A stretch of 64,000 bases of DNA from Siphonodentalium dalli (lineage: Eukaryota; Mollusca; Scaphopoda; Gadilida; Siphonodentaliidae). Below, in pieces: positions 7,656 through 64,000 of this stretch. The position numbers and the translations under genes are program-made. The stretch lies in NCBI GenBank assembly GCA_032622095.1, contig CP136068.1:157613465-157677464 (forward strand), read 5' to 3'. The notes below the pieces were generated by a model. It was not told where the DNA came from and searched no databases. It saw only the letters and a program-made list of their open reading frames with translations. How positions within the stretch are numbered: position 1 is the first letter of the stretch; every line of letters starts with the position of its first letter.

Positions 7656-8920
7656 CTACTATGGGGGGTTTGGGAAACTTTCCCGGGAAGATTTGAAAGG
7701 GGCGGAACCCCTCTCCTACAACCCACTGTGATTTAATATAAAGTACATGTAATGGTAATACATTAAACATGAGATTGATGAAGGTGAAGTGAAAATGATC
7801 TATTTTTTTTTTTTTTTCTTGTTTGCTTTCCTTTTTCGTCGGTTTGGTATTGTTGTTGTTGTTGTTGATGCTGTGGCTGTGTCCGAGTAGGAACTGGATT
7901 TTTCTTTTTCTTCTGTTTGTTCCTGCTTTCCGCATGGAGGAGGGCGTTTGGAACAGAGTATATTCTCTCCTTGAATTTTGACAATGCCTTGTGCAGGGTC
8001 CAGCTCGTCAGGTCCTCTGTAAACGTGACTATCCCTCAGCAGGAAGAATTCGCGATTGTTGATTGGGTATTTCATTCCTGCTGCGTGGTGTTCACGAATC
8101 GCCACTGCGATGTCATCACGCTCGAAGTCGATCTGATCTTCTGTTGGAGACGCCGGCTTCACGTCATACCTCGGCGTCGGAGGGGCGGAGATGGTGCTAT
8201 CCGCCCCTGGTGGAGAAAGGCTGGGTGGTGTTTCCATCTCCACGTTGAAACTGGCGGCAGGGACATCGGGGGTGGTATCCGCGTCCCTGTCTCCGCTCGT
8301 CTCTGTGCCGACAGCAGGGACCTCCGGCAGATCTACGGAGTCCCTGCTATCTGGTCTGATGTCACCTGTCTCCATGCAGGCCGGGTCGTCTGGGCGTCTC
8401 TCAGACAACTCCGGCCTACCGGCTGTGACACTGGATGGCTGAACCACACGGGGAGGGGTGACCGGTCGATCAACGGTCGCCCCCATCTCCTTCTTCCATT
8501 TCGCCCGTCTGGCTGCGTCCCTTCTCCTTCGAGCTGGTGTCTTTTTCTTAGGAGGCTCCTCTTTCATGGTACGGCTGGTCTTGGTCTTGCTCCAGGTGGA
8601 AGATTTCTGGTTTCCAGCATCTCCCGTCCTGAATTCAACGCAGAGAGTCAAATAGCCTCTGTTAGACTGGAGATTCCAGCTAACAATATCCGCAATTTGA
8701 GATCTCTCTATCGCTGCTAACGCGGCGTCAGGGATTAACTCCATTGTCCGTCGCACTAAGCCTAATCCAAAACCGTCTCACTCGCCGGCATCAGCACGAG
8801 GGCGGTTGCTTCCAATTAAGGTTACAGACCGCTCAAATCACTCGTACCGACGCTCCGACAAGACAAGGAACTAATAGAGCCAAATAGAATCTGACTTGTT
8901 CGCTCCACTTGCTGCCAGAG
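7656..8920 (-). mobile_element. E1 retroelement copy 2, full length
   Basis: A 1265-bp element on the minus strand. Its 5' end is CTCTGGCAGCAAGTGGAGCG (complement of 8901-8920), the same as the 5' end of E1 copy 1 at 25575. Its 3' end carries two hairpins (AGGGG/CCCCT and GGGAAA/TTTCCC) and CCCCCCATAGTAG. It is flanked by 13-bp target duplications, as expected for target-primed reverse transcription. It encodes one protein and no reverse transcriptase, so it presumably depends on a LINE in trans (inference). Confidence 0.8.
7800..8744 (-). CDS. E1 ORF protein, long C-terminal variant (314 aa)
   Basis: The frame starts MELIPDAALAAIERSQ. A basic segment KKKTPARRRRDAARRAKWKK lies near residues 70-95, followed by an acidic, Pro/Ser-rich middle with SERRPDDPACMETGD and DTTPDVPAASFNVEMETPP. 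The C-terminal half, unique to this copy, includes AGMKYPINNREFFLLRDSHV and ends in a long lysine run. Basic KKTPSxxRRDxxR segments occur in uncharacterised invertebrate retroelement ORF1-like proteins (recollection). It is probably an RNA-binding ORF1-type protein. The start was chosen at the ATG that matches copy 1. Confidence 0.65.
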   Translation of the reverse strand: MELIPDAALAAIERSQIADIVSWNLQSNRGYLTLCVEFRTGDAGNQKSSTWSKTKTSRTMKEEPPKKKTPARRRRDAARRAKWKKEMGATVDRPVTPPRVVQPSSVTAGRPELSERRPDDPACMETGDIRPDSRDSVDLPEVPAVGTETSGDRDADTTPDVPAASFNVEMETPPSLSPPGADSTISAPPTPRYDVKPASPTEDQIDFERDDIAVAIREHHAAGMKYPINNREFFLLRDSHVYRGPDELDPAQGIVKIQGENILCSKRPPPCGKQEQTEEKEKSSSYSDTATASTTTTTIPNRRKRKANKKKKKK

Positions 8921-8933: not shown

Positions 8934-9602
8934 CTACTATGGGGGGTTTGGGAAACTTTCCCGGGAAGATTTGAAAGGGGCGGAACCCCTCTCCTACAAC
9001 CCACTGTTGGATTTAATTTGAAACATGTTATGGTAATACATAAGCATGAATTGGTGAGGGTGAAATGAAAATGATCTATTTTTTTTTTGATTTCTTGGCC
9101 TTCTTTTTGGTTCTATGTTCTGATGATGTTGCTTGTTGCTGTTGTTGTAGTTGAGCTTCCAATATTTCCTCCCTTGCTTTCGCCCGTATGTTTCTGTCTT
9201 TTACTCCTTGATCATCCCATGCTTTCGCACGTATGTCCCTTTCTTTTTGTTCTTGATCATGCTTCTGTTGCCATATCGCATGTTCTGCCATGAGTTTTTC
9301 GTGTTTTTCATTGCGCTCTGCGTCAGCAAGGGTGATGGCTGTACTGGTGTTGTTGTTGGTGCTGGTGGAGCTGGGGGACACCGGGATGTTTTGGTAATCC
9401 GGTGTCCGAGGTGTAAAACTATCCAGTTCCACGTCGAAGCTGGCGGCAGGAACATCTGGGGTGGTATCCACGTCCCTGTCTCCGCAAGCCTCGACGACGA
9501 CAGCAGGGACCTCCGGCAGATCCACGGAGTCCCTGCTAGCTGTTCCAATGTCGTCAGTCTCCATGCAGGTCGGGTCGTCTGGGCGTCTCTCAGACAACTT
9601 CA
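8934..9602 (-). mobile_element. E1 retroelement copy 3, 5'-truncated
   Basis: Minus-strand E1 with the same 3' end as copy 2. Its 5' side is cut at about 9602, where the E2 3'UTR begins abruptly. The coding remnant (9076-9602) keeps SERRPDDPTCMETDD and DTTPDVPAASFDVELDS. It then has its own C-terminus, rich in Lys, Glu and Gln (EKLMAEHAIWQQKHDQEQKE), ending in KKKAKKSKKK. That tail resembles the coiled-coil-like tail of copy 1. Confidence 0.75.
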
Positions 9603-9747
9603 TCTTGTCATTAAAGGGACAATGATGATTTGGTTCATGAATAAGCCGTCTGGCAAAACGCCCGTTCTGGTAGTAAGTATCGGGACCCTCCTGGTCTCAT
9701 GACCAGGACTGAGTCAAACCCCCGTTTAAAAAAAAGAAGAAAAAAAA
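9603..9747 (+). mobile_element. E2 LINE 3' end with poly(A) tail (fragment)
   Basis: The terminal 3'UTR of E2 begins at TGTCATTAAAGGGACAATG and contains the hairpin-forming GGCAAAACGCC and CCTGGTC/GACCAGG. It ends in CCCCCGTTT and an A-rich tail. It lacks about 20 bp between the CCTGGTC arms that the other copies have. The next E2 copy begins directly after the tail, so this is the first visible head-to-tail junction. Confidence 0.8.
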
Positions 9748-11417: not shown

Positions 11418-12348
11418 TTCTTGAATGTAATTTGGGGGGGCTAACCCCGGGATTCTCGAAAGGGTCGAATGACCCTTTCCTTAACCCCTCATTTTTTTGC
11501 CTTTAATTTGGTAACTAAAAAAAAACTAAAAAAAAACAATTTTTGTTTATCTTTTCTTTGTCTTTTTCTTTTTTGGCCTCTTCGCCGGTGGTGGTGCAGA
11601 CGAAGAGGCATCCGAGGGAGAGGTGTAGCTCGTGTTGCTGGTGTCGTCTGTCTTCTTTTCTGACTTCCCCCTCCGGTACTGGATGGCCCCATCAACTACC
11701 CTGTACACTAGGCCAGACGGTACACCAGCGTCTGCCGCTGTGTATATTATTTCGTTATACAACAGCTCGCTGTCTGCCTTGGTTATGGTGTATCTTTGAT
11801 GTTTTGCTTCAGCCGCGTGTACTCGGCGATTAAAGGCATCTCTTAATAGATGGAGCTGCTCTTCTCTGTCTGGTGGTTCACCCTCCCTGGTGGTGGAACT
11901 GGGGGACACCGGGATGTTCTCGTAATCCGGTGTCCGAGGTGTGAAGCTGTCCAGTTCCACGTCGAAGCTGGCGGCAGGAACATCTGGGGTGGTGTCCACG
12001 TCCCTGTCTCCGCAAGCCTCGACGACGACAGCAGCGACCTCCGGCAGATCCACGGAGTCCCTGCTAGCTGGTTCAATGTCGTCAGTCTCCACGCAGGTCG
12101 AGTCGTCTGGGCGTCTCTCAGACAACTTCGACCCGCCGGCTATGACTATAGACGGCTGAGCCACACGGGGAGGGGTGACCGGTCGATCCACGGTCACCCC
12201 CTTCTGCTTCTTCCATTTAGCCCGTCTGGCGGCGTCCCTTCTTTTTCTAGTAGGCGTCTTCTTCTTGGGAGGCCCCTTCCCGACATTCATGAAACAGGAG
12301 GCAGTCCTGGAGTTGGTGTCCCGGGTCTGTGATTTCTGGTTTCCTCCA
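11418..12348 (-). mobile_element. E1 retroelement copy 4, divergent subfamily, 5'-truncated
   Basis: A 931-bp minus-strand insertion between ORF1 and ORF2 of E2 copy a, with a 12-bp target duplication. The 3' end differs in sequence from copies 1-3 but is again two hairpins: GAAAGGGTC facing GACCCTTTC, and a GGGGTTA-type stem near 11438-11500. The coding region shares the N-terminal half with other E1 copies. The 5' terminus found in copies 1 and 2 is missing. Confidence 0.8.
11547..12290 (-). CDS. E1 ORF protein, divergent C-terminus (247 aa)
   Basis: It starts MNVGKGPPKKKTPTRKRR. It lacks the first roughly 65 residues seen in copies 1 and 2 (MELIP region) because the element is truncated, so this ATG is internal relative to them. 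The basic RRDAARRAKWKK segment and the PDDSTCVETDD to SFDVELDS middle are conserved. The C-terminal domain is new: a helical stretch (LHLLRDAFNRRVHAAEAKH) followed by GVPSGLVYRVVDGAIQYRRG, ending in PKKKKTKKR. No enzymatic motif seen. Confidence 0.6.
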   Translation of the reverse strand: MNVGKGPPKKKTPTRKRRDAARRAKWKKQKGVTVDRPVTPPRVAQPSIVIAGGSKLSERRPDDSTCVETDDIEPASRDSVDLPEVAAVVVEACGDRDVDTTPDVPAASFDVELDSFTPRTPDYENIPVSPSSTTREGEPPDREEQLHLLRDAFNRRVHAAEAKHQRYTITKADSELLYNEIIYTAADAGVPSGLVYRVVDGAIQYRRGKSEKKTDDTSNTSYTSPSDASSSAPPPAKRPKKKKTKKR

Positions 12349-13463: not shown

Positions 13464-15596
13464 GCTGCCAAACTCGGAATCGAAACCAAAGTAGGCGCCG
13501 ATGTTGGAAGTGATCACCTCCCGCTCGAACTAACAATTACAAAAGTAAAACCGAAAACAACTAAATCAATATTTCGCAGAAATCTCAGCAAAGCAGACTG
13601 GGACCTCTTTCAACAAGAAATAATAAGCAACCTTTCAAATTCCCCTCTTACCAGACCAAAGGAACTAGAATCTGCTGCACTAGATATATGTAAATGCCTA
13701 ACAAACGCCCTAGATAAAGCTTGCCCCAAAACGGAGGTAAAACCCCATACCTGGAGGGTCTCTAGCGAAACTTTAGCACTCATAAGACTTAAAAGGAAAA
13801 CCAGGAGACTTTCGGCTAAAAACCCTGACCATGCAGAATATAAAACACTTTACAATAATCTCAATAGGCAAGTAAAACAAAAAATCAAAGAGGAAAAAGC
13901 TAAATCATGGGAAAAAATCACATCCAGCCTTAATGAACGGGAAATGGATAGAAAATTTTGGCAAACATTCAAAACCCTAACAGGCCAAGGCAAATCAGAA
14001 ACGGAAAATTCAAAACAGATTCAAGGAAAAAATGGGAAAAAATCAGAAAATAATTTTGAGAAAGCCCAAATCTTCGCCGAGAGCCTCAGGGATATCCATA
14101 AAATGCACGAAGGGGATATATTTAATAGGGGCTTCAAACATAAAGTCAATGACTTCATAGACGATAATATTGAATTCTACTCACCATTACTGGAAGAAGT
14201 AGATGAGCCGGGAGATGGGGATCCTCTTGTAGCCGAAATCACTAATCAGGAAGTAAGACTAAATCTCAAAAAAGGCAAACCCAACAAAGCCCCAGGGGAT
14301 GATGAAATCACCTATGGAATACTTAAGCAAGCCCCTGAAATCCTATTTAATAGACTAACCACACTATATACTAAATGCATGAGGCTAGGCTATTATCCCA
14401 AAATATGGAAAAATGCAATAGGAACCATGATACCTAAGCCTGGGAAAGACCACACGATACCCACAAACTATAGACCAATAAGCCTATTACAATGTACGGG
14501 CAAACTCTTCGAAAGGGTAATCAGCAGCAGAATCAAATCCCATCTCGAGGGTACCAACTTTTTCAATAAATTCCAAAGGGCTTACCGGGAAGGAAAAGAG
14601 GGCATTGAACATGTATATAGACTCACAGAGGATATTAAAACGGCAATGAATAGAGAATGGGAAACCGGGGCTATATTCTTAGATGTAGAAAAAGCGTTTG
14701 ATTCAGTATGGCACAATGGTCTAAGGTATAAACTAAGAATGACAACTGACCTCCCCCAAAAAATGGTTAGACTCCTATCATCATTTCTCACACACAGAAC
14801 TATTAAAGTAAAAATAAAAGATGAACTTTCAGAAAGCGTCCCTTTAAAGGCCGGAACCCCCCAAGGATCAGTACTCAGCCCTCTGCTATTTTTAATATAC
14901 GTTAATGACATACCCAATGACCCTACATCAAGTGTCCAAATATCTCAATTTGCTGACGACCTTGGACTGTGGACGTCTGGCAAATCAGTAAAATATATAG
15001 AACATAGACTTCAGAACCAGCTCCATAGACTAGAAAAATGGTGTTCAAAATGGAGAATCAAATTAAATCCACTTAAAACGCAATTAATCGTATTTGGGAA
15101 CAAACACAATTACTCCAAACCCGAACTCTCTCTTTTTGACACAGCCATCAAACAATCTAACGAAGCCAATTTCCTTGGATTCACTCTAGACTCACGCCTT
15201 AAATTTAAAAAACACCTAACCAATATCTCCACCAAAGCTAGACAAAGAACCTCCCTTTTAACTAGACTTCGGGGCACTGGGTGGGGGGTCAATCAATCCA
15301 CTTTAATCAAAGTATACAAACAATTCATCAGACCAGTCATGGAATATGGGGCAATTATCACAGCATCTTGTAAACCTACTCTGCTTAATAAATTACAAGT
15401 CGCACAGAATATGGCCATCAGAATGTCACTTCAAGCGCCATATAGAACCCCTATAACGGTACTCCATCTAACGGCAGACGTCCCCTATATACAGGATAGA
15501 CTAAACTATCTAGCTGAAGAAACTTTGAATAGATTAAATGGCACGATCCTAATGAATGAACTTGGCATCAGGAAGACAATCCTCACTAAACGTTAA
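13464..15596 (+). CDS. E3 ORF2 reverse transcriptase, lacking most of the endonuclease (about 710 aa)
   Basis: The open frame enters from E2 sequence; the element's own codons start at 13464. GSDHLPLELTI near the start is the last motif of an APE-type endonuclease. The reverse-transcriptase motifs follow in order: KAPGDDEITYGIL, NYRPISLLQCTGKLFERVI, FLDVEKAFDSVWHNGL, GTPQGSVLSPLLFLIYVNDI, and the catalytic QFADD (about 14949-14960). NFLGFTLDSRLKFKKHL and ADVPYIQDRLNYLAEE come after. These resemble the jockey clade. Without the endonuclease it is not autonomous, but the polymerase frame is uninterrupted, suggesting a recent insertion. Confidence 0.85.
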   Translation, partial: AAKLGIETKVGADVGSDHLPLELTITKVKPKTTKSIFRRNLSKADWDLFQQEIISNLSNSPLTRPKELESAALDICKCLTNALDKACPKTEVKPHTWRVSSETLALIRLKRKTRRLSAKNPDHAEYKTLYNNLNRQVKQKIKEEKAKSWEKITSSLNEREMDRKFWQTFKTLTGQGKSETENSKQIQGKNGKKSENNFEKAQIFAESLRDIHKMHEGDIFNRGFKHKVNDFIDDNIEFYSPLLEEVDEPGDGDPLVAEITNQEVRLNLKKGKPNKAPGDDEITYGILKQAPEILFNRLTTLYTKCMRLGYYPKIWKNAIGTMIPKPGKDHTIPTNYRPISLLQCTGKLFERVISSRIKSHLEGTNFFNKFQRAYREGKEGIEHVYRLTEDIKTAMNREWETGAIFLDVEKAFDSVWHNGLRYKLRMTTDLPQKMVRLLSSFLTHRTIKVKIKDELSESVPLKAGTPQGSVLSPLLFLIYVNDIPNDPTSSVQISQFADDLGLWTSGKSVKYIEHRLQNQLHRLEKWCSKWRIKLNPLKTQLIVFGNKHNYSKPELSLFDTAIKQSNEANFLGFTLDSRLKFKKHLTNISTKARQRTSLLTRLRGTGWGVNQSTLIKVYKQFIRPVMEYGAIITASCKPTLLNKLQVAQNMAIRMSLQAPYRTPITVLHLTADVPYIQDRLNYLAEETLNRLNGTILMNELGIRKTILTKR

Positions 15597-15676: not shown

Positions 15677-15947
15677 CGGGTAGCGGGCTCACGCCCTATA
15701 TGGCTCCTCGGGCGCTGACAAATGCCCTTGGGCGGCGTAAATACGCATTTCGTGGCCGTAGCATAAGCCATTGAGTAATTATCTCCAAAAAAAAAAACTG
15801 TATTACAAACTGACTAACACCAAACTTAAAACATAGGTTAGCGGGCTCAGGCCCTAGATGGCTCCTTGGGCGCTGATGAATGTCCTCGGGCGGTGTAGAT
15901 ACCCTTTTGGTGACCGTAGTATAAGCCATCGAACAATTATCTCCTCT
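15677..15947 (+). repeat. Two direct repeats of about 107 bp in the E3 3' region
   Basis: Copies at about 15677-15787 and 15841-15947 share GCGGGCTC, ATGGCTCC, GGGCGCTGA, TAAGCCAT and AATTATCTCC. They lie just downstream of the stop codon. Hairpin potential is high (GGGCTC/GCCC). Confidence 0.75.
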
Positions 15948-17125
15948 AAACCAACTAACTAACTGCCAATCTTGTAACATTTACAGAAGCTAGCGCTCGT
16001 GTCTAACACATTCCACTCACCCGACAACACCTATCGAGCGGGATCCGGCATAAAAACCGACCCAGCACTTTGCTTGGGGTGGGGTGCAAGGAAACTTCAG
16101 ACCCATAAGTGGTCACCAAAGCTCTCATCGAGTTCAGGCCGGACATATACCTACATATGTTCGGCCTGCTTGCTGCTCTGCGATTTTCTTCGGGAGGCCA
16201 GGAACGGCCCATCAAGAACACATTGTAATTATCATTTTGTACATTCATATTTTTACATAATACAAATAAAACAACCAAAAAATCATATAAACCAAAAAAA
16301 AATATATATATATATATATGTTCACCGTACAATAATTATATATATTGATGTATATGTATATGTTCATTATCGTACAAAATTTCTACAGCGAATAAAAATC
16401 TGAATAAACACTGTATATGATTGTTAAAATATCATCTCTCTCTCTCTATCATCTCGGGTGTTCGCGCTCTTCTACTCTTCTGCCCGCCCACCCCTTGTAT
16501 TCCTGCAATCATACATCTCTGTACATAACCATTCACATACATCGTCAACAATTAAAGTTTATCTTGTACATAATCTCTAGATTTGCTTCACTTGTTGTAA
16601 CCCAAATAACTCTGCACATAAAATTGTCAGAGTCTTCACTTACGCCCGTGCTACGGGTCCAAACAGAAACAACGAAATAAATAAAACATACTGTCTCTGC
16701 GCATTTGTCTATAGCAGAATAGCGGTATGATGGCGCATTGAAACACATTGAATCACATGCTCTGCCTTGCGGTTGTCGTTTTTTAAACAACTAACAAACT
16801 AACACTATTTTAAAATTTTAACACGGGGCCCCGCTCCTTTTTCAGCGCACCAGATGACACGCTCAGCCCAACCATAATTAAAGGGACCCACCGGGACACC
16901 CCTCTCACCCCATATTAAAGCTCGTGGGCTCTTCCCTAAATAATCCATCCAATTAATTCAATCAACGAAATAACATTAACTCATTATGTCCGTTTTTGCC
17001 GTGTTCAGACATGATTGTTTTCTGTGTGCTATATCTCCAACAACAACAAATCGGGGGGTGAAGGAGAAGATCACTCGATCTTTTCGACCATCCCGGGCGC
17101 TTCGCGCCCACTTACTCTACTACTA

Positions 17126-18965: not shown

Positions 18966-20555
18966 ATGACAATGGGTGATTCAAGCCGCCAACGGTCACT
19001 AGCGATGTGTTTATCGGTGTGGTACGATAGCATTGAGTCACAGCAACACACCCGTAAACAAGAGGACTCTACTAAAGTAACCGACAATCTACAAGCTGTG
19101 TTACTGTTCATTAACTCAACAACGCAAGATGTGTTTACGTCCACAATAATAGAATTTGTTGCTAACCAAGATAAACTTTTAGATACTCTCCGCGACAACG
19201 TATTCATGCATGCAACAATTGACAATAGCTTTCCATATGACTCTTCCTCATCAATGAATCAACGCGTTGTTCGAAGTTTAACCGGTGATCATATTATTGA
19301 CAAAAACAGTCGTAATATGAGAATGGCAGTGGATATATACAAACTAATGAAATTTTTGGTCGATAAGGATGGGGATAACATCAATGACGTTATAAGTAAA
19401 GGTGTTAGAAATAAAAGTGTTAGCCGTCCTTCAATATCAAGCATGCCTGTAATCGACGACGACCAGGCAATCTCCAATGTGAACGTCAACAGCTCGATTG
19501 TGAAAATCCTCCGAGATATATCTCTGATAAAAACGGAAAATGAAAAATTCCATAAAGACTTCTCCGAACGTATTCCGAAGTTGGATTCAACAATAGCTCA
19601 AATGGAAGCCCGATTAGATAAAATTGATGAAAAACTATGTATTGTAAAAGATGTGAACCAACTCAAAAAAGATGTTGCGAATGTAAATACTAAAATAAAA
19701 ACAATGGATGAAGACTTAGAAAGTGTGAAATTAACAATGGAAAGAATACAAGATGAAAAATACTCTGGTGTGAAAAGATTAAAAAGTGAAATTGTCGGCG
19801 TCAAATCGGATGTGGGTACCATAGTAAATGGGTTGGAGGAGTTTAGTCGTAAACAAAAAAGCTTTGAAGGACAACTATCAACATTAAAGGATTTAGTAAA
19901 TAAAAAGCATGTTCAACCAACACACTCCTGCGATAAACTAATGAATGAAACAATTAAAAATAACGTGAATATAATGAAAGATGAATTCCGGAACTTCACC
20001 ACAAGCGTGACTAATAACCTCCAGGTATTTGTGGAATGTGTGAGTGTTTCAATGGACAATGTATCCAAAACTCAACGCGACATATCAGACACACTCAATA
20101 AAATGATGGATGCATTCCTTGCTTATGATGATACATGTGACCGCTCTCAGGCCAGTGATGAAGCTTCAGTGGATGATTCACATTCCAGTGCCCCAAATGA
20201 TGTATCCTATGAATCCAGAGTTCCATCATATGAAGATAATCGCAGACATAACGCCTCGAACAATACAAGAAGCCCGCGATATTCGGACAATGAACCTGAT
20301 GACTATTACTTTAACAAGCAAGATGGCCCGATTAAAACATCACAGGTATTCCTTGGTGGTTTCTCCAACCGAGTGACAATTCACGACATCAAGAAACACT
20401 TACTGTACGAAAACGTACGTTTCACTGTTATCCGGATGTTAAGAGGAAACACGGCTCGTATCAACATTTGTGACGATTATCTGGACAACGTTCTCGCATC
20501 TATAACTTCTGGCCAAAAGGAGCAATCTGCAGAATGTGGGTCCACAAAATCGTGA
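18966..20555 (+). CDS. E4 ORF1, coiled-coil protein (about 529 aa)
   Basis: It starts MTMGDSSRQRSLAMC. The first 150 residues are globular-looking. Heptad-like helices follow (about residues 180-330, e.g. LDSTIAQMEARLDKIDEKL), then an acidic Ser/Asp/Asn-rich linker. The C-terminal block QVFLGGFSNRVTIHDIKKHL resembles an RNA-recognition-type domain of LINE ORF1 proteins. In copy b the C-terminus continues to a FWPKGAICRMW motif. Here a short indel near 20505 shifts the frame and the last residues differ, so this copy has a damaged tail. Expected role: RNA binding and chaperoning of the element transcript. Confidence 0.7.
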   Translation: MTMGDSSRQRSLAMCLSVWYDSIESQQHTRKQEDSTKVTDNLQAVLLFINSTTQDVFTSTIIEFVANQDKLLDTLRDNVFMHATIDNSFPYDSSSSMNQRVVRSLTGDHIIDKNSRNMRMAVDIYKLMKFLVDKDGDNINDVISKGVRNKSVSRPSISSMPVIDDDQAISNVNVNSSIVKILRDISLIKTENEKFHKDFSERIPKLDSTIAQMEARLDKIDEKLCIVKDVNQLKKDVANVNTKIKTMDEDLESVKLTMERIQDEKYSGVKRLKSEIVGVKSDVGTIVNGLEEFSRKQKSFEGQLSTLKDLVNKKHVQPTHSCDKLMNETIKNNVNIMKDEFRNFTTSVTNNLQVFVECVSVSMDNVSKTQRDISDTLNKMMDAFLAYDDTCDRSQASDEASVDDSHSSAPNDVSYESRVPSYEDNRRHNASNNTRSPRYSDNEPDDYYFNKQDGPIKTSQVFLGGFSNRVTIHDIKKHLLYENVRFTVIRMLRGNTARINICDDYLDNVLASITSGQKEQSAECGSTKS

Positions 20556-20633
20556 CTAGTCAATGCATGTATGCATATATGATTCTGCTCACTTATTTAT
20601 GTTGTATTTACATTGCATATACATGATTCAACA

Positions 20634-20807
20634 ATGCGTTATACGACTTTGCTGTTGACATTAATATGTCTAATTACAAGTATAAATGTAACAACTAATA
20701 GTATCACATTAACAGTAGTTGAATGCAAACGCGTGATGGAATCTCCTGAATTAAAGGCACGTGCGGCCTTAATTGTCGAAAATATTCATATTTGTTCCAA
20801 ACCGTAA
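20634..20807 (+). CDS. Small ORF between E4 ORF1 and ORF2, hydrophobic N-terminus (57 aa)
   Basis: MRYTTLLLTLICLITSIN looks like a signal peptide, but nothing else about the frame is recognisable. In copy b the same start runs in frame directly into ORF2 because the 20756-21242 segment is absent. It may be only the accidental leader of ORF2; no function is proposed. Confidence 0.25.
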   Translation: MRYTTLLLTLICLITSINVTTNSITLTVVECKRVMESPELKARAALIVENIHICSKP

Positions 20808-21237
20808 ACAGAAAAACAGTAAAACGCATACAGTTCCGTTCATATATACCATGACCATCGCGTAAACGGCATGTTATCATAAAGACCTACTATATTTTAC
20901 CTAAGCAAGAGCACAATGAAGACAACACAATGCTACTGGCTAATCGCACACAAATGGCATAAACGCTCTTTATTAGTTCCATATCAGGTATTCACCAACA
21001 AGGAACGCTCTTTATGTTTACCATCATAATATAAACAAACACCAGAAAAGTAACTTTTTACGCTTTTGTTTACATAACAATGGTCAAACATATGACAATA
21101 ACATACTGTTTATGCGATATTTTTTATTTGTATACGGACAAAGTATATCTACATTTTGATGTTATTTCTGTTTGTGGCGGTTTTTGACGGGTGGAGATAT
21201 TTTCACAGGATACCCACCGCCAAGGCCAACCGTGTCT
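20756..21237. other. Indel of about 487 bp between the E4 copies, bounded by TTAAA
   Basis: Present in copy a and absent in copy b, where a single TTAAA joins the flanks (58096-58100). The segment is AT-rich and non-coding apart from the end of the small ORF. Its inner ends are weakly inverted: AGGCACG with GGCCTT on the left, and the complement of AAGGCC with CGTGTCT on the right. It is either a small TTAA-targeted insertion in copy a or a microhomology deletion in copy b. Confidence 0.5.
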
Positions 21238-24200
21238 TTAAACCTACTCAACTGGAACTGTACAGGTATCACATCTTCGGGTCATTACTTGGCATCATTG
21301 CTCAAGAATGGCGCTTATGATATCGTAGGCTTAAGTGAGCATTGGCTTTATCAATGCGATCTTGATTTCCTCGGTTCGCTTAACAAGGACTATGAGTATC
21401 ATGCCGTATGCGATTCTCGCCAAAATATTCCCAACAAGAGAGGTAGACCTAGTGGTGGTGTTGCCTTGCTATGGCATAAGAAATTATCAAATCGTATATG
21501 TCCGCTTGCAATTAATGATGATCGTATTTTAGGGATACAAATTAGGATGACGGATGAAAGTTTTATATATCTCCTCCAAGTATATCTACCATCTACAAAC
21601 TATACCATACAATATTACGAAGAGTATGCGAAAACGCTTGGTGACCTATGTGACACCTACAAATCATATGGTAACGTAATCGTAATGGGAGACACAAACG
21701 GACAATTTGACAAATCTGATGAACGAAATATGATATTCAAGAAAATGGTTAAGCGAATCGAGATGGTATCTGTGAATTATGAATTTTATGACGATTATCC
21801 TCTATCTACATGCATTCCTTTCGGTGATTACTGCCAATTACATGAAGGAACAATTGTCGATCACATTTTTATTCCATCCACATTTATTCCATTTATTCAC
21901 GAGGTACATGTTTTAGACGATGACGCCATTAACGTATCTAATCATAGACCTATTGCATTACATTTGAAGTTTCAGCTACGCAGTCAATCTTCATGTACAG
22001 CCGAAAGAGAAACAGACAAAACCATAAATTGGCGTAAAGTTAAATCTGAACCAGAAATTCTCGAACTTTACAAACAAAGTCTTGATGTTGAACTAACAGC
22101 ACACAAAATCATATACACTGATGATTCAGACATATCTGAAGTTTACCAGTCAATTGCACGTGTAATATCAAAAGTATCGGAATCATGTTTACCAAAAAAG
22201 TCATATAATAAACGCCTGAAACCATATTGGGGAGATTGTTTGAAAAATAAGCATAAATATATGCGTGATCTCCGGAAACAACGGATACGTGAAGGTCGAC
22301 CTCGAGCAAGTACACAATGTAATAGTTACACTCAATATAAATTAGCGAAACGTGATTTTCGTAGAGAGTACAGAAAAGCGTCCGAAAATTATATATCCGA
22401 ATTAAATAATGAAATTGACGAACGCGCTCAGATCGATCAGAATTATCTATTTAGCGTGATACATGTAAAGCGACAGAGAAATCATATCGATAAAAATGCA
22501 TTCTTTTGTTATGAAGGGAAGGTTCTACGGAATGATCTTGATGTTGTGGAAGGCTGGGCATCGTATTTTGAAAATCTGTACTCACCGCTATACCAATCAG
22601 ATTTTGATTTCAATCACTTCCACTGTGTTAATGAATTTATTGCGCGTACAATGGCCAGTAAACAAAGCAGTGATATTGACAATCGCATAATTTTTCCTGT
22701 ATCAACTGGTGAACTGAATCAAATATATCGGGGCCTAAGTACGGGGAAAGCGGCTGGATGGGACGGGATATCCAATGAACACTTATTATACGGAAGTAAC
22801 ACATTGACGCTGGCGATTTCTAAACTCTTAACTAATGTAATTAATACACAGAAGGTCCCGAGCCAAATGAAACGCGGTATAATCGTTACATTATTTAAAG
22901 GTGGCAAAAAACCCAGGACAGATTTTGATAGCTATAGGGCTATAACGTTGATGCCTGTTTTATATAAGTTACTTGAAAAAGTTATACAAACTCGATTGGA
23001 ATCTTATGCACCCAATTTAATACAAGTGCACCCGCTTCAACATGGCTTCCAAAAAGGTGTAAGCGCAACCATGACATCTTACGTAATGAAGGAATGTATT
23101 GACTATGTGTCCGCTAGTAAACAAAAATTATACAGCTTATTTTTAGATGTATGGAAGGCATTCGATACCGTCTGGATTAACGGATTGTTATATAAATTAG
23201 ATAAACGCGGTTTTAAAGGAAATTTGTTTTGTCTCATTAATGAATTGCTGACAGATGTTACATGTTCTATTCGTTATAACAATTCCTTATCTAGGTGGTT
23301 TGAACGTCTAGGGGCTCGTCAGGGAAGTATTCTCTCCCCATTTTACTACATGGTCTATGTTGACGAGTTGATATGTACTCTCGCAAATTCCCCGTATGGC
23401 CTACAAATGCTCGGAGTAAATTGCACATGCCCAACACATGCTGATGACATGGTTTTATTATCACTCAATAGTGTCGGATTATCAGCTCTAATTGATATGT
23501 GTTTTGAATACAGCAAAAAGTGGCGATATAAGTATAACTCTAATAAATGCTCGGTAATAGTATTCAACGAAACAAAGTCAGAGTTCTCTCGTCAACATCG
23601 CGTCTGGAACTTAGGAACATATACTCTACAAGAATGTTCAGAAGTTACCCATCTTGGTATTCCACTCGATAAATACGATTTTAATTCTGTCTTCATTGAT
23701 CGGATATGTGACAAAACCCGAAGTACATTCATGATGTTAACGAACGCAGGAATATACCCCGGTGGCATTACACCAAAAAGTTGTTCGTTGATTTATTATT
23801 CGGTGGTCATTCCAAAAGGTTTATACGGATCTGAACTTTTGTGGTGCATGTGTGAATAAAACTCAATGCGACCGTCTCGAAAGAATGCACCGTTTCTGTC
23901 TAAAATACTATCAGGGTCTTCATAATCGCACAAAAACAGTTATAGCTCAAGGATTAGTCGGTATGTCGTCAATGGTATCATTAATAGAAAAACGCAAACT
24001 GTCATTTATTGGTTCAATATGCAATCTGTCGTCGAACAAAACCGCCAAAGATGTATTTATTACACGGTTATACCAGTATTTAATGTTTCCTACAGCTTCA
24101 AATTCTAATTTCATGGTTGATATTATTTGTACATTGGACAAATATGGAATGACCGAATATTTCGAGAAATACTTATTAAATGTGACCTTTCCAAACAAAT

Positions 24201-24730
24201 TATCATGGAAAAATATAACGAAGACCTCATGGTTCAATATAAATAGAGATGAATGGGAATGTAGCAAAGGCGATGATAGTCGATTAAACCGTTTCTCGGC
24301 ACTCCAGCCTAAATTATGTATGTCTAGGCTATGGGAAAACTGTTACATATATCCTAAGCATAAAGATTCTTATCTCCTTGTTGCACGTCTTATTTCCATT
24401 CTTGAAACGGACGAACAATCGTGCCCATTGTGTGATAGAAAACACAATGATCTGGTCAGACATGCATTAATCGAGTGTGTCTCAATATGTGATAACCGTA
24501 ATATTTTTGAATTTGACTTATTAAACGAATTTCATGTAGACGTATACATGCAATATGATAGTTTGAATGCGGAATCCAAAACGCGAGTTCTATTATCCGG
24601 AATAGCTGAACTTGACCATTGTATACGCGAAATAGATAATGAACTGATCGATTTTTTCGTTAGGAAATCAGCTTCTCTTTGGAAAGCATATGTTGATAGC
24701 ATATCATCACTAATGTCTGTACCGCCATAG
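21238..24730 (+). pseudogene. E4 ORF2: endonuclease, reverse transcriptase and C-terminal zinc motif, one frameshift
   Basis: The open frame runs to 23859 and resumes in another frame at 23852-24730; a 4-bp insertion near 23848, absent from copy b, explains the break. APE endonuclease motifs: LNLLNWNCTG, VGLSEHWLY, VIVMGDTNGQFD, SNHRPIALHL. Reverse-transcriptase motifs: GWDGISNEHLL, SYRAITLMPVLYKLLEKVI, FLDVWKAFDTVW, ARQGSILSPFYYMVYVDEL. The catalytic box is HADD (His at about 23437), where Y/F-ADD is usual. A CPLCDRKHNDLVRHALIEC zinc motif is near the end. CR1-group by appearance. It would cut target DNA and prime cDNA synthesis if intact. Confidence 0.8.
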
Positions 24731-25045
24731 TTCTGTATTAAAATTATATATACGTACGCGTAACACACGAGTGCATATCTATAGCTCTATGACTGTATAT
24801 CATATGTGTACTTGCTATGTATAATGAAAATTTAGACGCATACATGTATTATGCAACCACAATCAATTGTATATAGCTGGTATTCGTCGCGAATTATACT
24901 CAAACCATTTTCGATATATTGTTTCAACACGCACATTATGCCAATGAATATGTTTAATGTTTAATTATGTTAATTATGTAATAATGTGTATGTGATTTTG
25001 TACACTATATCTTCGTTTACGGAGGAAATAAAGTCATATATATAT
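24731..25045 (+). other. E4 copy a 3'UTR
   Basis: AT-rich and non-coding. It ends GGAGGAAATAAAGTCATATA followed by TATATA, with a polyadenylation-like AATAAA. The complement of a very similar end lies directly after the H1 stop codon (28466-28490). Confidence 0.75.
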
Positions 25046-25574: not shown

Positions 25575-27321
<1,747 letters not shown>

Positions 27322-27570
27322 GGATACGCAGTCAAGCAGGCCATGCTAGACCGTCCCGTATCCCACTTCAGAAAAGACCCGCAGTCCAATAAGGTGTATT
27401 GGACCGTCCCGGGCGGTAACAGAAGAGAGCACGCAGTCCAGTGGAATCACTGGACCGTTCCGTACTCTCTTAGCAGCCCGCAATCCAATGCCTCCATTGG
27501 AAGGTCCCGGGCTTGGACAACCAACTGAAAATGCGCAATCCAGCATCTTCGCTGGATCGTCCCGCATTTT
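27322..27570. repeat. Array of five covarying hairpins in the H3-H1 spacer
   Basis: Hairpins at 27322-27363, 27378-27413, 27423-27471, 27475-27513 and 27528-27570. Each has an outer stem of 4-11 bp, a 3-nt left internal loop (CAG or CAA), an inner stem of 6-7 bp of type TCCARNN/NNYTGGA, a loop of 4-6 nt, and a 6-nt right internal loop (CCGTCC or close). The outer stems differ completely yet pair: GGATACG with CGTATCC, CCCG with CGGG, AAGAGAGCACG with CGTACTCTCTT (one mismatch), AGCCCG with CGGGCT, AAAATGCG with CGCATTTT. The whole array recurs at 63598-63846. No known RNA family recognised. Confidence 0.8.
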
Positions 27571-27912
27571 GCAAGATGCCGAGACAAGGCAAAGAAAAAT
27601 ATCAAGGCAAAAGTACAAGGCAAAGCCCAAGCAAAGATGGAAGATACTAGACAAGACAAGATTCAAGACACCTGTGACGCTGACCGATCCCGATCTCAAG
27701 ACTTCTCCACCCGATCCGCGACCTGACTGTTAAGAGAAAAGACCAAGAAGATTCAAGACAGGGCGTAAGGGCGACCTCCGGGTGAGCTCACACCGTCCTC
27801 GTGCCGCCCTTCGGGCGGACACGCAAATCCTGTGCCCGTTTACTCTTTATTCATTGTCGTTTAATCGTCAAAGTTTTGTAATTTTCAGTCGAAATTTACT
27901 CAAATTGCCACC
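27571..27912 (+). promoter_or_regulatory. Histone H1 upstream region
   Basis: Contains AAGGCAAAG-like short repeats (27583-27640), a perfect hairpin CCGCCC-TTC-GGGCGG at 27804-27818 and an octamer-like CGCAAATC at 27822-27829. TTTACTCTTTATTC at about 27839-27852 may be a degenerate TATA region. GCCACC precedes the H1 ATG, a good Kozak context. No CCAAT cluster like that of H3 was seen. Confidence 0.5.
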
Positions 27913-56311: not shown

Positions 56312-57904
56312 ATGACAATGGGTGATTCAAGCCGCCAACGGTCACTAGCGATGTGTTTATCGGTGTGGTACGATAGCATTGAGTCACAGCAACACACCCG
56401 TAAACAAGAGGACTCTACTAAAGTAACCGACAATCTACAAGCTGTGTTACTGTTCATTAACTCAACAACGCAAGATGTGTTTACGTCCACAATAATATAA
56501 TTTGTTGCTAACCAAGATAAACTTTTAGATACTCTCCGCGACAACGTATTCATGCATGCAACAATTGACAATAGCTTTCCATATGACTCTTCCTCATCAA
56601 TGAAACAACGCGTTGTTCGAAGTTTAACCGGTGATCATATTATTGACAAAAACAGTCGTAATATGAGAATGGCAGTGGATATATACAAACTAATGAAATT
56701 TTTGGTCGATAAGGATGGGGATAGCATCAATGACGTTATAAGTAAAGGTGTTAGAAATAAAAGTGTTAGCCGTCCTTCAATATCAAGCATGCCTGTAATC
56801 GACGACGACCAGGCAATCTCCAATGTGAACGTCAACAGCTCGATTGTGAAAATCCTCCGAGATATATCTCTGATAAAAACGGAAAATGAAAAATTCCATA
56901 AAGACTTCTCCGAACGTATTCCGAAGTTGGATTCAACAATAGCTCAAATGGAAGCCCGATTAGATAAAATTGATGAAAAACTATGTATTGTAAAAGATGT
57001 GAACCAACTCAAAAAAGATGTTGCGAATGTAAATACTAAAATAAAAACAATGGATGAAGACTTAGAAAGTGTGAAATTAACAATGGAAAGAATACAAGAT
57101 GAAAAATACTCTGGTGTGAAAAGATTAAAAAGTGAAATTGTCGGCGTCAAATCGGATGTGGGTACCATAGTAAATGGGTTGGAGGAGTTTAGTCGTAAAC
57201 AAAAAAGCTTTGAAGGACAACTATCAACATTAAAGGATTTAGTAAATAAAAAGCATGTTCAACCAACACACTCCTGCGATAAACTAATGAATGAAACAAT
57301 TAAAAATAACGTGAATATAATGAAAGATGAATTCCGGAACTTCACCACAAGCGTGACTAATAACCTCCAAGTATTTGTGGAATGTGTGAGTGTTTCAATG
57401 GACAATGTATCCAAAACTCAACGCGACATATCAGACACACTCAATAAAATGATGGATGCATTCCTTGCTTATGATGATACATGTGACCGCTCTCATGCCA
57501 GTGATGAAGCTTCAGTGGATGATTCACATTCCAGTGCCCCAAATGATGTATCCTATGAATCCAGAGTTCCATCATATGAAGATAATCGCAGACATAACGC
57601 CTCGAACAATACAAGAAGCCCGCGATATTCGGACAATGAACCTGATGACTATTACTTTAACAAGCAAGATGGCCCGATTAAAACATCACAGGTATTCCTT
57701 GGTGGTTTCTCCAACCGAGTGACAATTCACGACATCAAGAAACACTTACTGTACGAAAACGTACGTTTCACTGTTATCCGGATGTTAAGAGGAAACACGG
57801 CTCGTATCAACATTTGTGACGATTATCTGGATAACGTTCTCGCATCTAACTTCTGGCCAAAAGGCGCAATCTGCAGAATGTGGGTCCACAAAAATCGTGA
57901 CTAG
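56312..57904 (+). pseudogene. E4 ORF1, copy b, one nonsense codon
   Basis: Same protein as 18966-20555. A GAA to TAA change creates a stop at 56498-56500, and the frame then stays open to 57904. Its C-terminus is the better one, running through DDYLDNVLASNFWPKGAICR to HKNRD. Coiled-coil and RRM-like regions as in copy a. Confidence 0.8.
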
Positions 57905-58080
57905 TCAATGCATGTATGCATATATGATTCTGCTCACTTATTTATGTTGTATTTACATTGCATATACATGATTCAACAATGCGTTATACGACTTTGCTGT
58001 TGACATTAATATGTCTAATTACAAGTATAAATGTAACAACTAATAGTATCACATTAACAGTAGTTGAATGCAAACGCGTG

Positions 58081-61000
58081 ATGGAATCTCCTGAATTAAA
58101 CCTACTCAACTGGAACTGTACAGGTATCACATCTTCGGGTCATTACTTGGCATCATTGCTCAAGAATGGCGCTTATGATATCGTAGGCTTAAGTGAGCAT
58201 TGGCTTTATCAATGCGATCTTGATTTCCTCGGTTCGCTTAACAAGGACTATGAGTATCATGCCATATGCGATTCTCGCCAAAATATTCCCAACAAGAGAG
58301 GTAGACCTAGTGGTGGTGTTGCCTTGCTATGGCATAAGAAATTATCAAATCGTATATGTCCGCTTGCAATTAATGATGATCGTATTTTAGGGATACAAAT
58401 TAGGATGATGGATGAAAGTTTTATATATCTCCTCCAAGTATATCTACCATCTACAAACTATACCATACAATATTACGAAGAGTATGCGAAAACGCTTGGT
58501 GACCTATGTGACACCTACAAATCATATGGTAACGTAATCGTAATGGGAGACACAAACGGACAATTTGACAAATCGGATGAACGAAATATGATATTCAAGA
58601 AAATGGTTAAGCGAATCGAGATGTGAATTATGAATTTTGTGACGATTATCCTCTATCTACATGCATTCCTTTCGGTGATTACTGCCAATTACATGAAGGA
58701 ACAATTGTCGATCACATTTTTATTCCATCCACATTTATTCCATTTATTCACGAGGTACATGTTTTAGACGATGACGCCATTAACGTATCTAATCATAGAC
58801 CTATTGTATTACATTTGAAGTTTCAGCTACGCAGTCAATCTTCATGTACAGCCGAAAGAGAAACAGACAAAACCATAAATTGGCGTAAAGTTAAATCTGA
58901 ACCAGAAATTCTCGAACTTTACAAACAAAGTCTTGATGTTGAACTAACAGCACACAAAATCATATACACTGATGATTCAGACATATCTGAAGTTTACCAG
59001 TCAATTGCACGTGTAATATCAAAAGTATCGGAATCATGTTTACCAAAAAAGTCATATAATAAACGCCTGAAACCATATTGGGGAGATTGTTTGAAAAATA
59101 AGCATAAATATATGCGTGATCTCCGGAAACAATGGATACGTGAAGGTCGACCTCGAGCAAGTACACAATGTAATAGTTACACTCAATATAAATTAGCGAA
59201 ACGTGATTTTCGTAGAGAGTACAGAAAAGCGTCCGAAAATTATATATCCGAATTAAATAATGAAATTGACGAACGCGCTCAGATCGATCAGAATTATCTA
59301 TTTCGCGTGATACATGTAAAGCGACAGAGATATCATATCGATAAAAATGCATTCTTTTGTTATGAAGGGAAGGTTCTACGGAATGATCTTGATGTTGTGG
59401 AAGGCTGGGCATCGTATTTTGAAAATCTGTACTCACCGCTATACCAATCAGACTTTGATTTCAATCACTTCCACTGTGTTAATGAATTTATTGCGCGTAC
59501 AATGGCCAGTAAACAAAGCAGTGATATTGACAATCGCATATTTTTTCCTGTATCAACTGGTGAACTGAATCAAATATATCGGGGCCTAAGTACGGGGAAA
59601 GCGGCTGGATGGGACGGGATATCCAATGAACACTTATTATACGGAAGTAACACATTGACGCTGGCGATTTCTAAACTCTTAACTAATGTAATTAATACAC
59701 AGAAGGTCCCGAGCCAAATGAAACGCGGTATAATCGTTACATTATTTAAAGGTGGCAAAAAACCCAGGACAGATTTTGATAGCTATAGGGCTATAACGTT
59801 GATGCCTGTTTTATATAAGTTACTTGAAAAAGTTATACAAACTCGATTGGAATCTTATGCACCCAATTTAATACAAGTGCATCCGCTTCAACATGGCTTC
59901 CAAAAAGGTGTAAGCGCAACCATGACATCTTACGTAATGAAGGAATGTATTGACTATGTGTCCGCTAGTAAAAAAAAATTATACAGTTTATTTTTAGATG
60001 TATGGAAGGCATTCGATACCGTCTGGATTAACGGATTGTTATATAAATTAGATAAACGCGGTTTTAAAGGAAATTTGTTTTGTCTCATTAATGAATTGCT
60101 GACAAATGTTACATGTTCTATTCGTTATAACAATTCCTTATCTAGGTGGTTTGACGTTCGTCAAGGGGCTCGTCAGGGAAGTATTCTCTCCCCATTTTAC
60201 TACATGGTCTATGTTGACGAGTTGATATGTACTCTCGCAAATTCCCCGTATGGCATACAAATGCTCGGAGTAAATTGCACATGCCCAACACATGCTGATG
60301 ACATGGTTTTATTATTACTCAATAGTGTCGGATTATCAGCTCTTATTGATATGTGTTTTGAATACAGCAAAAAGTGGCGATATAAGTATAACTCTAATAA
60401 ATGCTCGGTAATAGTATTCAACGAAACAAAGTCAGAGTTCTCTCGTCAACATCGCGTCTGGAACTTAGGAACATATACTCTACAAGAATGTTCAGAAGTT
60501 ACCCATCTTGGTATTCCACTCGATAAATACGATTTTAATTCTGTCTTCATTGATCGGATATGTGACAAAACCCGAAGTACATTCATGATGTTAACGAACG
60601 CAGGAATATACCCCGGTGGCATTACACCAAAAAGTTGTTCGTTGATTTATTATTCGGTGGTCATTCCAAAAGGTTTATACGGATCTGAACTTTTATGGTG
60701 TGTGAATAAAACTCTGCGACCGTCTCGAAAGAATGCACCGTTTCTGTCTAAAATACTAACAGGGTCTTCATAATCGCACAAAAACAGTTATAGTTCAAGG
60801 ATTAGTCGGTATGTCGTCAATTGTATCATTAATAGAAAAACGCAAACTGTCATTTATTGGTTCAATATGCAATCTGTCGTCGAACAAAACCGCCAAAGAT
60901 GTATTTATTACACGGTTATACCAGTATTTAATGTTTCCTACAGCTTCAAATTCTAATTTCATGGTTGATATTATTTGTACATTGGACAAATATGGAATGA

Positions 61001-61577
61001 CCGAATATTTCGAGAAATACTTATTAAATGTGACCTTTCCAAACAAATTATCATGGAAAAATATAACGAAGACCTCATGGTTCAATATAAATAGAGATGA
61101 ATGGGAATGTAGCAAAGGCGATGATAGTCGATTAAACCGTTTCTCGGCACTCCAGCCTAAATTATGATGTCTAGGCTATGGGAAAACTGTTACATATATC
61201 CTAAGCATAAAGATTCTTATCTCCTTGTTGCACGTCTTATTTCCATTCTTGAAACGGACGAACAATCGTGCCCATTGTGTGATAGAAAACACAATGATCT
61301 GGTCAGACATGCATTAATCGAGTGTGTCTCAATATGTGATAACCGTAATATTTTTGAATTTGACTTATTAAACGAATTTCATGTAGACGTATACATGCAA
61401 TATGATAGTTCGAATGCGGAATCCAAAACGCGAGTTCTATTATCCGTAATAGCTGAACTTGACCATTGTATACGCGAAATAGATAATGAACTGATCGATT
61501 TTTTCGTTAGGCAATCAGCTTCTCTTTGGAAAGCATATGTTGATAGCATATCATCACTAATGCCTGTACCTCCATAG
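58081..61577 (+). pseudogene. E4 ORF2, copy b, frameshifted
   Basis: MESPELNLLNWNCTG enters the endonuclease directly. An 8-bp loss near 58625 shifts the frame, which reopens at 58623-60773 with the reverse transcriptase (RWFDVRQGARQGSILSP, CPTHADD). A 2-bp loss near 60712 and a further change at about 61166 (GATG for GTATG) break the C-terminal part, which resumes at 61164-61577. The catalytic box is again HADD. Confidence 0.8.
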
Positions 61578-62810
61578 TTCTGTATTAAAATTATATATAC
61601 GTACGCATTTCGAGAAATACTTATTAAATGTGACCTTTCCAAACAAATTATCATGGAAAAATATAACGAAGACCTCATGGTTCAATATAAATAGAGATGA
61701 ATGGGAATGTAGCAAAGGCGATGATAGTCGATTAAACCGTTTCTCGGCGCTCCAGCCTAAATTATGATGTCTAGGCTATGGGAAAACTGTTACATATATC
61801 CTAAGCATAAAGATTCTTATCTCCTTGTTGCACGTCTTATTTCCATTCTTGAAACGGACGAACAATCGTGCCCATTGTGTGATAGAAAACACAATGATCT
61901 GGTCAGACATGCATTAATCGAGTGTGTCTCAATATGTGATAACCGTAATATTTTTGAATTTGACTTATTAAACGAATTTCATGTAGACGTATACATGCAA
62001 TATGATAGTTCGAATGCGGAATCCAAAAACGCGAGTTCTATTATCCGTAATAGCTGAACTTGACCATTGTATACGCGAAATAGATAATGAACTGATCGAT
62101 TTTTTCGTTAGGAAATCAGCTTCTCTTTGGAAAGCATATGTTGATAGCATATCATCACTAATGCCTGTACCTCCATAGTTCTGTATTAAAATTATATATA
62201 CGTACGCATTTCGAGAAATACTTATTAAATGTGACCTTTCCAAACAAATTATCATGGAAAAATATAACGAAGACCTCATTGTTCAATATAAATAGAGATG
62301 AATGGGAATGTAGCAAAGGCGATGATAGTCGATTAAACCGTTTCTCGGCGCTCCAGCCTAAATTATGATGTCTAGGCTATGGGAAAACTGTTACATATAT
62401 CCTAAGCATAAAGATTCTTATCTCCTTGTTGCACGTCTTATTTCCATTCTTGAAACGGACGAACAATCGTGCCCATTGTGTGATAGAAAACACAATGATC
62501 TGGTCAGACATGCATTAATCGAGTGTGTCTCAATATGTGATAACCGTAATATTTTTGAATTTGACTTATTAAACGAATTTCATGTAGACGTATACATGCA
62601 ATATGATAGTTCGAATGCGGAATCCAAAACGCGAGTTCTATTATCCGTAATAGCTGAACTTGACCATTGTATACGCGAAATAGATAATGAACTGATCGAT
62701 TTTTTCGTTAGGAAATCAGTTTCTCTTTGGAAAGCATATGTTGATAGCATATCATCACTAATGCCTGTACCTCCATAGTTCTGTATTAAAATTATATATA
62801 CGTACGCATA
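61007..62810 (+). repeat. Tandem triplication, unit about 600 bp, of the E4 3' end
   Basis: Units at about 61007-61606, 61607-62207 and 62208-62808. Each begins TTTCGAGAAATACTTATT and ends ATATATACGTACGCA. All three share the 2-bp loss before TGTCTAGGC, so that change came first. Unit 2 has an extra A (ATCCAAAAACGCG) and units 1-3 differ by single bases (e.g. GGCAATC, GGAAATC). Confidence 0.95.
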
Positions 62811-63368
<558 letters not shown>

Positions 63369-63413: not shown

Positions 63414-63597
63414 ACCAAATTATATTAAAGTGAAACTTTTACATTGCTATATATTCCCCCAAAATGCGCGTAGAATTAATTTTGATATTAGCCCCCCCCC
63501 CCCTTAAAATTAAGCACAGTCGTGTTCTCTTTATCTTGGGCCAAATATAGGTTGATGAATATACATGTACATGTACATTGGACCGTCCCGGGTTTTA

Positions 63598-63846
63598 GGA
63601 TACGCAGTCAAGCAGGCCATGCTAGACCGTCCCGTATCCCACTTCAGAAAAGACCCGCAGTCCAATAAGGTGTATTGGACCGTCCCGGGCGGTAACAGAA
63701 GAGAGCACGCAGTCCAGTGGAATCACTGGACCGTCCCGTACTCTCTTAGCAGCCCGCAATCCAATGCCTCCATTGGAAGGTCCCGGGCTTGGACAACCAA
63801 CTGAAAATGCGCAATCCAGCATCATCGCTGGATCGTCCCGCATTTT
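63598..63846. repeat. Second copy of the covarying hairpin array
   Basis: Corresponds base for base in position to 27322-27570 (offset 36276). Few changes: the right internal loop of hairpin c is CCGTCC here rather than CCGTTC, and the last terminal loop is ATCATC. All stems remain paired. It is followed by the same AAGGCAAAG-rich stretch up to the window end; an H1 gene would be expected just beyond. Confidence 0.85.
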
Positions 63847-64000
63847 GCAAGATGCCGAGACAAGGCAAAGAAAAAGATCAAGGCAAAAGTACAAGGCAAA
63901 GATGGAAGATTCTAGACAAGACAAGATTCAAGACACCTGCGACGCTGACCGATCCCGATCTCAAGACTTCTCCACCCGATCCGCGACCTGACTGTTAAGA
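63847..64000. other. H1 upstream region, start (window ends)
   Basis: Matches 27571-27735 with a short deletion near 63901. Nothing else seen. Confidence 0.7.

Follow-up and report, generated by a model that had tools for sequence, protein, structure and literature searches.

We show that the tandem hairpins lying between the H3 and H1 genes in the window (the whole 64,000-nucleotide stretch analysed, on contig 8 of the Siphonodentalium dalli assembly) belong to the 3' UTR of a dispersed LINE, or non-LTR retrotransposon, and that their presence at this place goes back to a single 5'-truncated insertion of this element, carried by duplicated units. What looked like a striking structure of a histone locus has turned out to be a mobile element. 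Comparison of the genomic copies supports, in statistical terms, the conclusion that selection on the active LINE lineage kept the stems, the bulged core and the spacing of the hairpins, and not their apical loops or linkers. As to function, a protein-binding array is our best guess from the sequence.

The five hairpins that the sequence-only reading had placed at 27322-27570 were all found there (Table 1). Their left loops read CAG or CAA and their right loops CCGTCC, CCGTTC, AGGTCC or TCGTCC, and the inner stem of HP1 contains one A.A mismatch. A half hairpin at the left edge of the LINE fragment is the right arm of a sixth hairpin (HP0), which is reduced to this arm in the window because the LINE copy is 5'-truncated at 27301. 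When the array model R1 was searched over the window, it matched two arrays only. The outer stems, described earlier as unrelated in sequence yet complementary, do pair far better with their own arms than with exchanged ones: at outer positions 3-8 there are 23 matches between own arms, whereas the 120 possible left/right pairings average 13.2; two of the 120 reach 23, the true pairing being one of them, and pairings with no arm at home give at most 16. In an alignment of the five hairpins read on the minus strand, both sides have changed in 8 of 16 pairs, and covariation stands at 0.55, compared with 0.285 in shuffles, none of 500 reaching the observed value, and with at most 0.127 when the alignment is slid; one of five measures, that of further pair types, was not above shuffles (391 of 500 reach it). 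The 301-nt stretch folds below shuffles by 5.6 sd on the plus strand and by 7.9 sd on the minus strand. The earlier argument that compensatory change means a maintained structure extends across the 57 genomic copies described below. In agreement with the sequence-only reading, which had recognised no RNA family, the array matches none in Rfam: at gathering score the whole window yields the histone stem-loop (Histone3) alone, in two places, and a search of 27150-27912 at E up to 10 gives one weak IRES match (E 3.6). The histone 3' stem-loop (RF00032) is a separate match at 27124-27169, some 150 nt upstream of the array, and the array itself does not match that model. Among other identities considered, no tRNA identity was found; a coding repeat was rejected, as the distance from one core to the next is in most cases no multiple of three and the open stretches of the nine copies compared differ in frame and length; and eight pattern matches in viral contigs (L001-L008), whose flanks form no outer stems by eye, were taken as chance.

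Table 1. LINE-derived features of the window (HP0-HP5, hairpins of the array; positions are those of the window)
Feature	Position	Strand	Remarks
RT ORF of sister LINE, ~55% identical	13944..15596	+	3' UTR without such an array
5'-truncated LINE 3' end (3' UTR only)	27301..27842	+ (sense)	right end uncertain by ~6 nt
HP0, right arm only	27301..27320	+	complete two-armed HP0 in left-complete copies (e.g. L020, L033)
HP1	27322..27363	+	outer stem 7 bp, inner stem 7 bp
HP2	27378..27413	+	outer stem 4 bp, inner stem 7 bp
HP3	27423..27471	+	outer stem 11 bp (one C.A mismatch), inner stem 7 bp
HP4	27475..27513	+	outer stem 6 bp, inner stem 7 bp
HP5	27528..27570	+	outer stem 8 bp, inner stem 6 bp
A-rich spacer and preterminal LINE 3' UTR	27571..27799	+	fast evolving, length-variable
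Terminal hairpin of LINE	27800..27823	+	490/510 pair cells standard over aligned copies
Second LINE fragment copy	63577..64000	+	in 698-column match, 96% identical; cut by window end
Second array, HP1-HP5	63598..63846	+	63598-63639, 63654-63689, 63699-63747, 63751-63789, 63804-63846

The evidence for a mobile element comes from the host genome (2.23 Gb, 9 contigs), in which the core word TGGACCGTCCCG has 313 exact occurrences (155 + 158) against 23 (16 + 7) for the reversed control; among the matches listed, the core words are often clustered with the spacing seen in the window. Twenty loci were fetched as 9-kb stretches and compared with the window, and 19 of them match inside 27301-27842 and not the surrounding histone DNA (L032 gave no match); 18 of the 19 reach 27822-27842, and two additionally match 26003-26355. 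The left junction of the LINE fragment was read from left-complete copies, in which the end of the RT ORF lies directly to the left and the hairpins begin at the TGA stop of ORF2. A complete element has six tandem hairpins from the ORF2 stop, followed by the spacer and the terminal hairpin, and lacks poly(A) at its end. The common right end consists of the terminal hairpin and CAAATCCTGTTCCTGC in 11 of the 16 right ends inspected, followed by unrelated DNA, and no poly(A) run stands at any of these 16, while the left ends differ among 69 matched records, a pattern of variable 5' truncation with a common 3' end. Pair 7-17 of the terminal hairpin is G-C in 45 copies, G.U in 5, A-U in 1 and C.C in 1.

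The coding part of the element agrees with this assignment. ORF2, taken from L033, contains a reverse transcriptase domain (RVT_1, E 1.8e-36); among the 130 matches listed to its last 306 residues, at least 72 are 79-100% identical and at least 58 are 49-55% identical, and the matches listed include at least five 911-aa frames without a stop inside the match. ORF2-related copies occur on all nine contigs. One 911-aa copy is preceded by an open frame of 688 aa (ORF1) with three CCHC-like knuckles by eye, for which Pfam zf-CCHC_6 gives an E of 0.019, below the cut-off; a search for an RRM in ORF1 gave no match at E 0.1. The frame start after ORF1 has a weak Exo_endo_phos match (E 0.05) over 65 N-terminal residues only, and a 911-aa relative (P0122, 50% identical) carries the RT domain and both endonuclease models above cut-off; P0121, an ORF2 relative from another mollusc, is 66% identical. 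On the ORF1 frame, the endonuclease match and this relative, we therefore class the element as a two-ORF LINE, probably of APE type, whose layout would be Jockey-like.

The insertion also accounts for the histone setting. The ten hairpins counted by the sequence-only reading represent a single array present twice through a 36-kb segmental duplication, and self-comparison of the window reveals several duplicated blocks some 36-38 kb apart. Inside the hairpins the second array differs from the first by 2 bases, both unpaired; being a segmental duplicate, it gives no independent evidence. A word from the LINE spacer stands at 27685 and 63950 and a third time at C8:157708070, 30.7 kb downstream, so that the H3-LINE-H1 unit probably exists in three or more copies. 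This recurrence, together with the position of the array between H3 and H1 in both units of the window, speaks for the idea put forward with the first description, namely that the hairpins are a histone-locus RNA or recruitment element. That idea is refuted as an account of origin and retains next to no credence: the array is dispersed as part of a LINE 3' UTR, its relatives are found on every contig, the right flanks of the 16 inspected copies are mutually unrelated, and the LINE origin accounts for the whole segment. Scattered matches and decayed stems had been named in advance as signs against a maintained structure; the matches are indeed scattered, because the element is mobile, and the stems have decayed in dead copies, but pairing is better preserved in the lineage that made the copies. 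The end of the LINE lies about 70 nt upstream of the H1 start codon, and the fragment, sitting in the H1 5' region, may be transcribed in the H1 leader, which would be a result of the insertion and is not evidence for a histone role. Just left of the insertion, at 27243-27280, stand what we take, by eye, to be an AAACACA box and a TATA-like AAATATAGG, and it would seem that the H1 promoter or leader was cut in two by the insertion (27243-27280 / 27843-27912).

To assess selection we collected 72 records, 70 of them loci and 2 stretches of the window; 69 match the LINE 3' end (L032, L076 and L081 do not); 12 of the 69 were dropped as duplicate fetches (7) or short pieces (5), leaving 57 aligned copies, and 15 copy-by-hairpin cases in which the hairpin was mostly missing or misaligned were masked. 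Between 5 old and 41 young copies, masked divergence is 0.094 (outer stems), 0.082 (core) and 0.126 (inner stems), as opposed to 0.315 (apical loops) and 0.302 (linkers); the same contrast appears between mid and young and among young copies. Before masking, the old/young values were 0.133 (outer), 0.134 (core), 0.167 (inner), 0.360 (apical) and 0.349 (linker), with 0.062, 0.069 and 0.142 at the three ORF2 codon positions and 0.360 in the A-rich spacer, the last perhaps inflated by low-complexity alignment, whereas the alignment of linkers and apical loops is anchored at either side. Neighbouring hairpins lie at an almost fixed distance from each other, and the spacer varies in length, the interval from the HP5 anchor to the terminal hairpin being 174-297 nt except in L069 (462) and L023 (914).

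The second line of evidence places stem-pair changes on the tree by parsimony, with means taken over 30 tie resolutions, and separates terminal branches, which mostly record decay after insertion, from internal branches with at least three leaves, which represent the lineage making the copies. With masking and a midpoint root, terminal branches show 28.0 pair changes that keep pairing and 77.3 that break it, against 10.3 kept and 4.8 broken on the internal branches, where, of 4.6 changes that start from an unpaired state, 3.6 lead to a pair. The difference rests on about 15 deep changes and has a Fisher p of 0.003 (0.0007 and 0.006 with two other roots). Two-leaf internal branches behave like terminal ones (3 kept, 10 broken), and adding them to the internal class gives p of 0.04, 0.019 and 0.05. 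Without masking, 10 deep changes keep and 4 break pairing, against 30 and 105 on terminal branches (p 1.1e-4 to 7e-4), values that are too optimistic, partly because misaligned hairpins inflated the terminal breaks; masking thus weakened the branch test, while the divergence contrast grew. Inner pair 2 of HP2 serves as an example, being C-G in 42 copies, U.G in 7, U-A in 5 and C.A in 3; speaking against a kept structure, inner pair 3 of HP1 is A.A in 42 copies, uncompensated. Deep changes mostly keep pairing and terminal ones mostly break it, and we therefore conclude that the structure is selected in the active element. Comparing deep with terminal branches of a repeat family is, in addition, a simple test for selected RNA structure within one genome.

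The sequence-only reading had described a constant asymmetric loop. Its constancy is borne out, and the loop is better read as a partly paired, bulged core on the sense strand, which as folded comprises a C-G pair, an A.C mismatch, a G-C pair and a 3-nt bulge, UCC, on the 3' side. The middle A faces C or G in almost every copy, the central mismatch being A.C in most hairpins and A.G in HP4 and three old copies of HP3. At the third position, a pair that mostly covaries, most copies of HP0-HP3 have G-C, HP5 and three old HP3 copies have A-U, and HP4 has G.U in old copies and otherwise G.A or A.A. HP1-HP5 fold better on the minus strand because there the A.C becomes a U.G pair (with a bulge GGA), and HP3 has fixed A.C mismatches that would be G.U on that strand. 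Such folding would suit a structure that acts as DNA (a cruciform, a first-strand cDNA hairpin, a chromatin or recombination site) or as antisense RNA, an explanation that we consider very improbable. The A.G mismatch of HP4 and the three old HP3 copies indicates that the feature preserved is not a G.U of the minus strand, the sense strand gives HP0 its better fold, and in left-complete copies the array lies on the sense strand of ORF2, next to its stop. Wobble cells over all copies number 95 G.T and 147 A.C, and without four pair sites of common change (HP0 i2, HP1 i3, HP3 o4 and HP3 o5) they number 58 and 57, which carries no strand signal. On deep branches sense G.U outnumbers A.C (5.3 vs 2.1, against 24 vs 30 on terminal branches, as branch means), so that deep wobbles lean towards the sense strand, with p of 0.17, 0.046 and 0.19 depending on rooting, a spread that leaves the DNA or antisense explanation some room.

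Array and terminal tail also occur apart. The core word is absent from seven sampled copies of a sister LINE family that is 50% identical, and the array is therefore not generally needed; the terminal hairpin CCGGCCTGCGGCCGG is exact in five of the seven and altered by one base in the other two, and in these copies a short tail without evident poly(A) follows. In a second sister family, 55% identical, the 3' UTR has other, similar modules, and L088 lacks the core word. Here (window 15680-15960; L088) we observed a GC-rich, hairpin-prone module of about 120 nt, with two similar copies in the window, which is possibly another selected RNA structure. The LINE tail word occurs 344 times in the genome, and on contigs 1 and 2, 50 of its 68 sites have no exact core word within 1.3 kb, a count that will include truncated or mutated LINE copies. 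One locus, L096, is 96% identical to the LINE over its last ~100 nt and upstream consists of another repeat, with a long lysine run at the frame end; a word from this repeat occurs 43 times in the genome, and contigs 1 and 2 carry 11 of these sites, of which 9 are followed 98-102 nt on by the exact tail word. Since the L096 repeat shares the tail without the array, the terminal tail travels in nature without it. The L096 repeat is possibly an ORF1-only or other partner element. As a separate observation, one 50% sister copy (L087, C8:37526250-37527150) ends just upstream of another H1 gene; an H1-specific LINE was considered and rejected, as the flanks of six further copies of that family match neither H1 nor H3.

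These distributions bear on two further explanations. The array could be an extended ORF2 (RT) recognition site, belonging to a stringent-type 3' tail at which target-primed reverse transcription is initiated. The ORF2 protein of two zebrafish stringent LINEs binds a 3' stem-loop through the region between EN and RT, and a single bulged nucleotide of UnaL2, needed for efficient retrotransposition, offers a parallel to the bulged core (PMC4176376). We nevertheless regard this explanation as unlikely, as some 200-300 nt, with a length-variable spacer, separate the array from the terminal hairpin downstream, the L096 repeat and the seven sister copies have terminal hairpins without it, and the apical loops, essential in ZfL2, vary freely. 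Alternatively, the hairpins could serve stability, export or translation of a poly(A)-less RNA through a host protein, in the manner of the histone stem-loop, and the location directly 3' of the stop codon and the right ends devoid of poly(A) would fit such a service. This, too, seems improbable to us, given that the array has no Rfam relation to RF00032 and that the seven sister copies do without it while equally lacking an evident poly(A) tail.

We favour instead a cis-acting, multivalent protein-binding signal for RNP assembly formed by the six cores, with the ORF1 product as the most likely protein, and consider this reading of the sequence to have about an even chance of being right. On sense RNA the six cores would provide repeated docking sites for one protein, most likely the LINE's own ORF1 product with its CCHC-like knuckles, which would package the LINE mRNA in cis into a retrotransposition RNP, and the terminal hairpin, common to the array-less repeat, would start reverse transcription. 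The ORF1 product is our first candidate because CCHC knuckles of ORF1 are reported to package SART1 mRNA specifically (PMC4120745) and because the terminal hairpin can fill the role of the ORF2-bound stem-loop (PMC4176376). Contact between the ORF1 product and the array is a guess, and the ORF2 protein or a host factor are alternative binders. More tentatively, and with some doubt on our part, a separate repeated packaging signal would load CCHC-bearing ORF1 in cis, with priming split off and the partner repeat borrowing the priming tail.

Compared with known systems, the element combines familiar and unusual traits. Like the stringent-type tails of UnaL2, ZfL2-1 and ZfL2-2 and the 3' UTRs of R2 and SART1, it has a conserved 3' hairpin in the LINE RNA and a 3' tail common to another repeat, here that of L096, and a stem bulge matters in UnaL2 (PMC4176376). 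The recognition site of stringent LINEs is described there as one 3' stem-loop with an essential loop, bound by ORF2 (PMC4176376), whereas the array has six hairpins with free loops and a fixed bulged core and stands upstream of, and in addition to, the terminal hairpin. Recognition of a conserved apical loop does not fit the array, in which the loops diverge by 0.315-0.36, like the linkers. Retroviral packaging signals and hairpin arrays of the MS2/PP7 type consist of several stem-loops bound by copies of one protein; in the array, unlike these, the fixed part is an internal bulge and not the apical loop. The three CCHC knuckles of ORF1, seen here by eye, resemble those of the SART1 or gag-like ORF1, but the portion of that report used here mentions no repeated hairpin signal (PMC4120745), and the array has six hairpins. 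In the open-licence literature, searched by title and abstract opening, we found no report of tandem hairpin arrays in LINE 3' UTRs. The cis preference of L1 was called unknown in 2014, the sites described in that source being a 3' stem-loop or poly(A) (PMC4176376). A selected six-fold motif that is separable from the terminal tail is a directly testable candidate for LINE cis preference and, if the more tentative reading above is true, a non-LTR retrotransposon would carry a retrovirus-like signal for packaging, and cis preference would have a molecular basis.

The histone units of the window contain other repeats and damaged genes besides. Both H3 copies next to the two arrays are damaged: the one at 26756-27100 lacks an internal stretch and is then out of frame, and that at 63019-63368 lacks its N-terminal part where LINE-derived DNA adjoins. 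Frames of one family with lysine-rich C-termini (7800-8744, 9076-9603, 11547-12290 and 25741-26550) stand among the repeats around the H3 copies and probably belong to another repeat. Finally, a second large LINE lies between the H3 copies in both units (18966-24759 and 56552-62809), with an ORF1 of 529 aa and an RT frame of 770 aa, its last part being tandemly repeated in the second unit.
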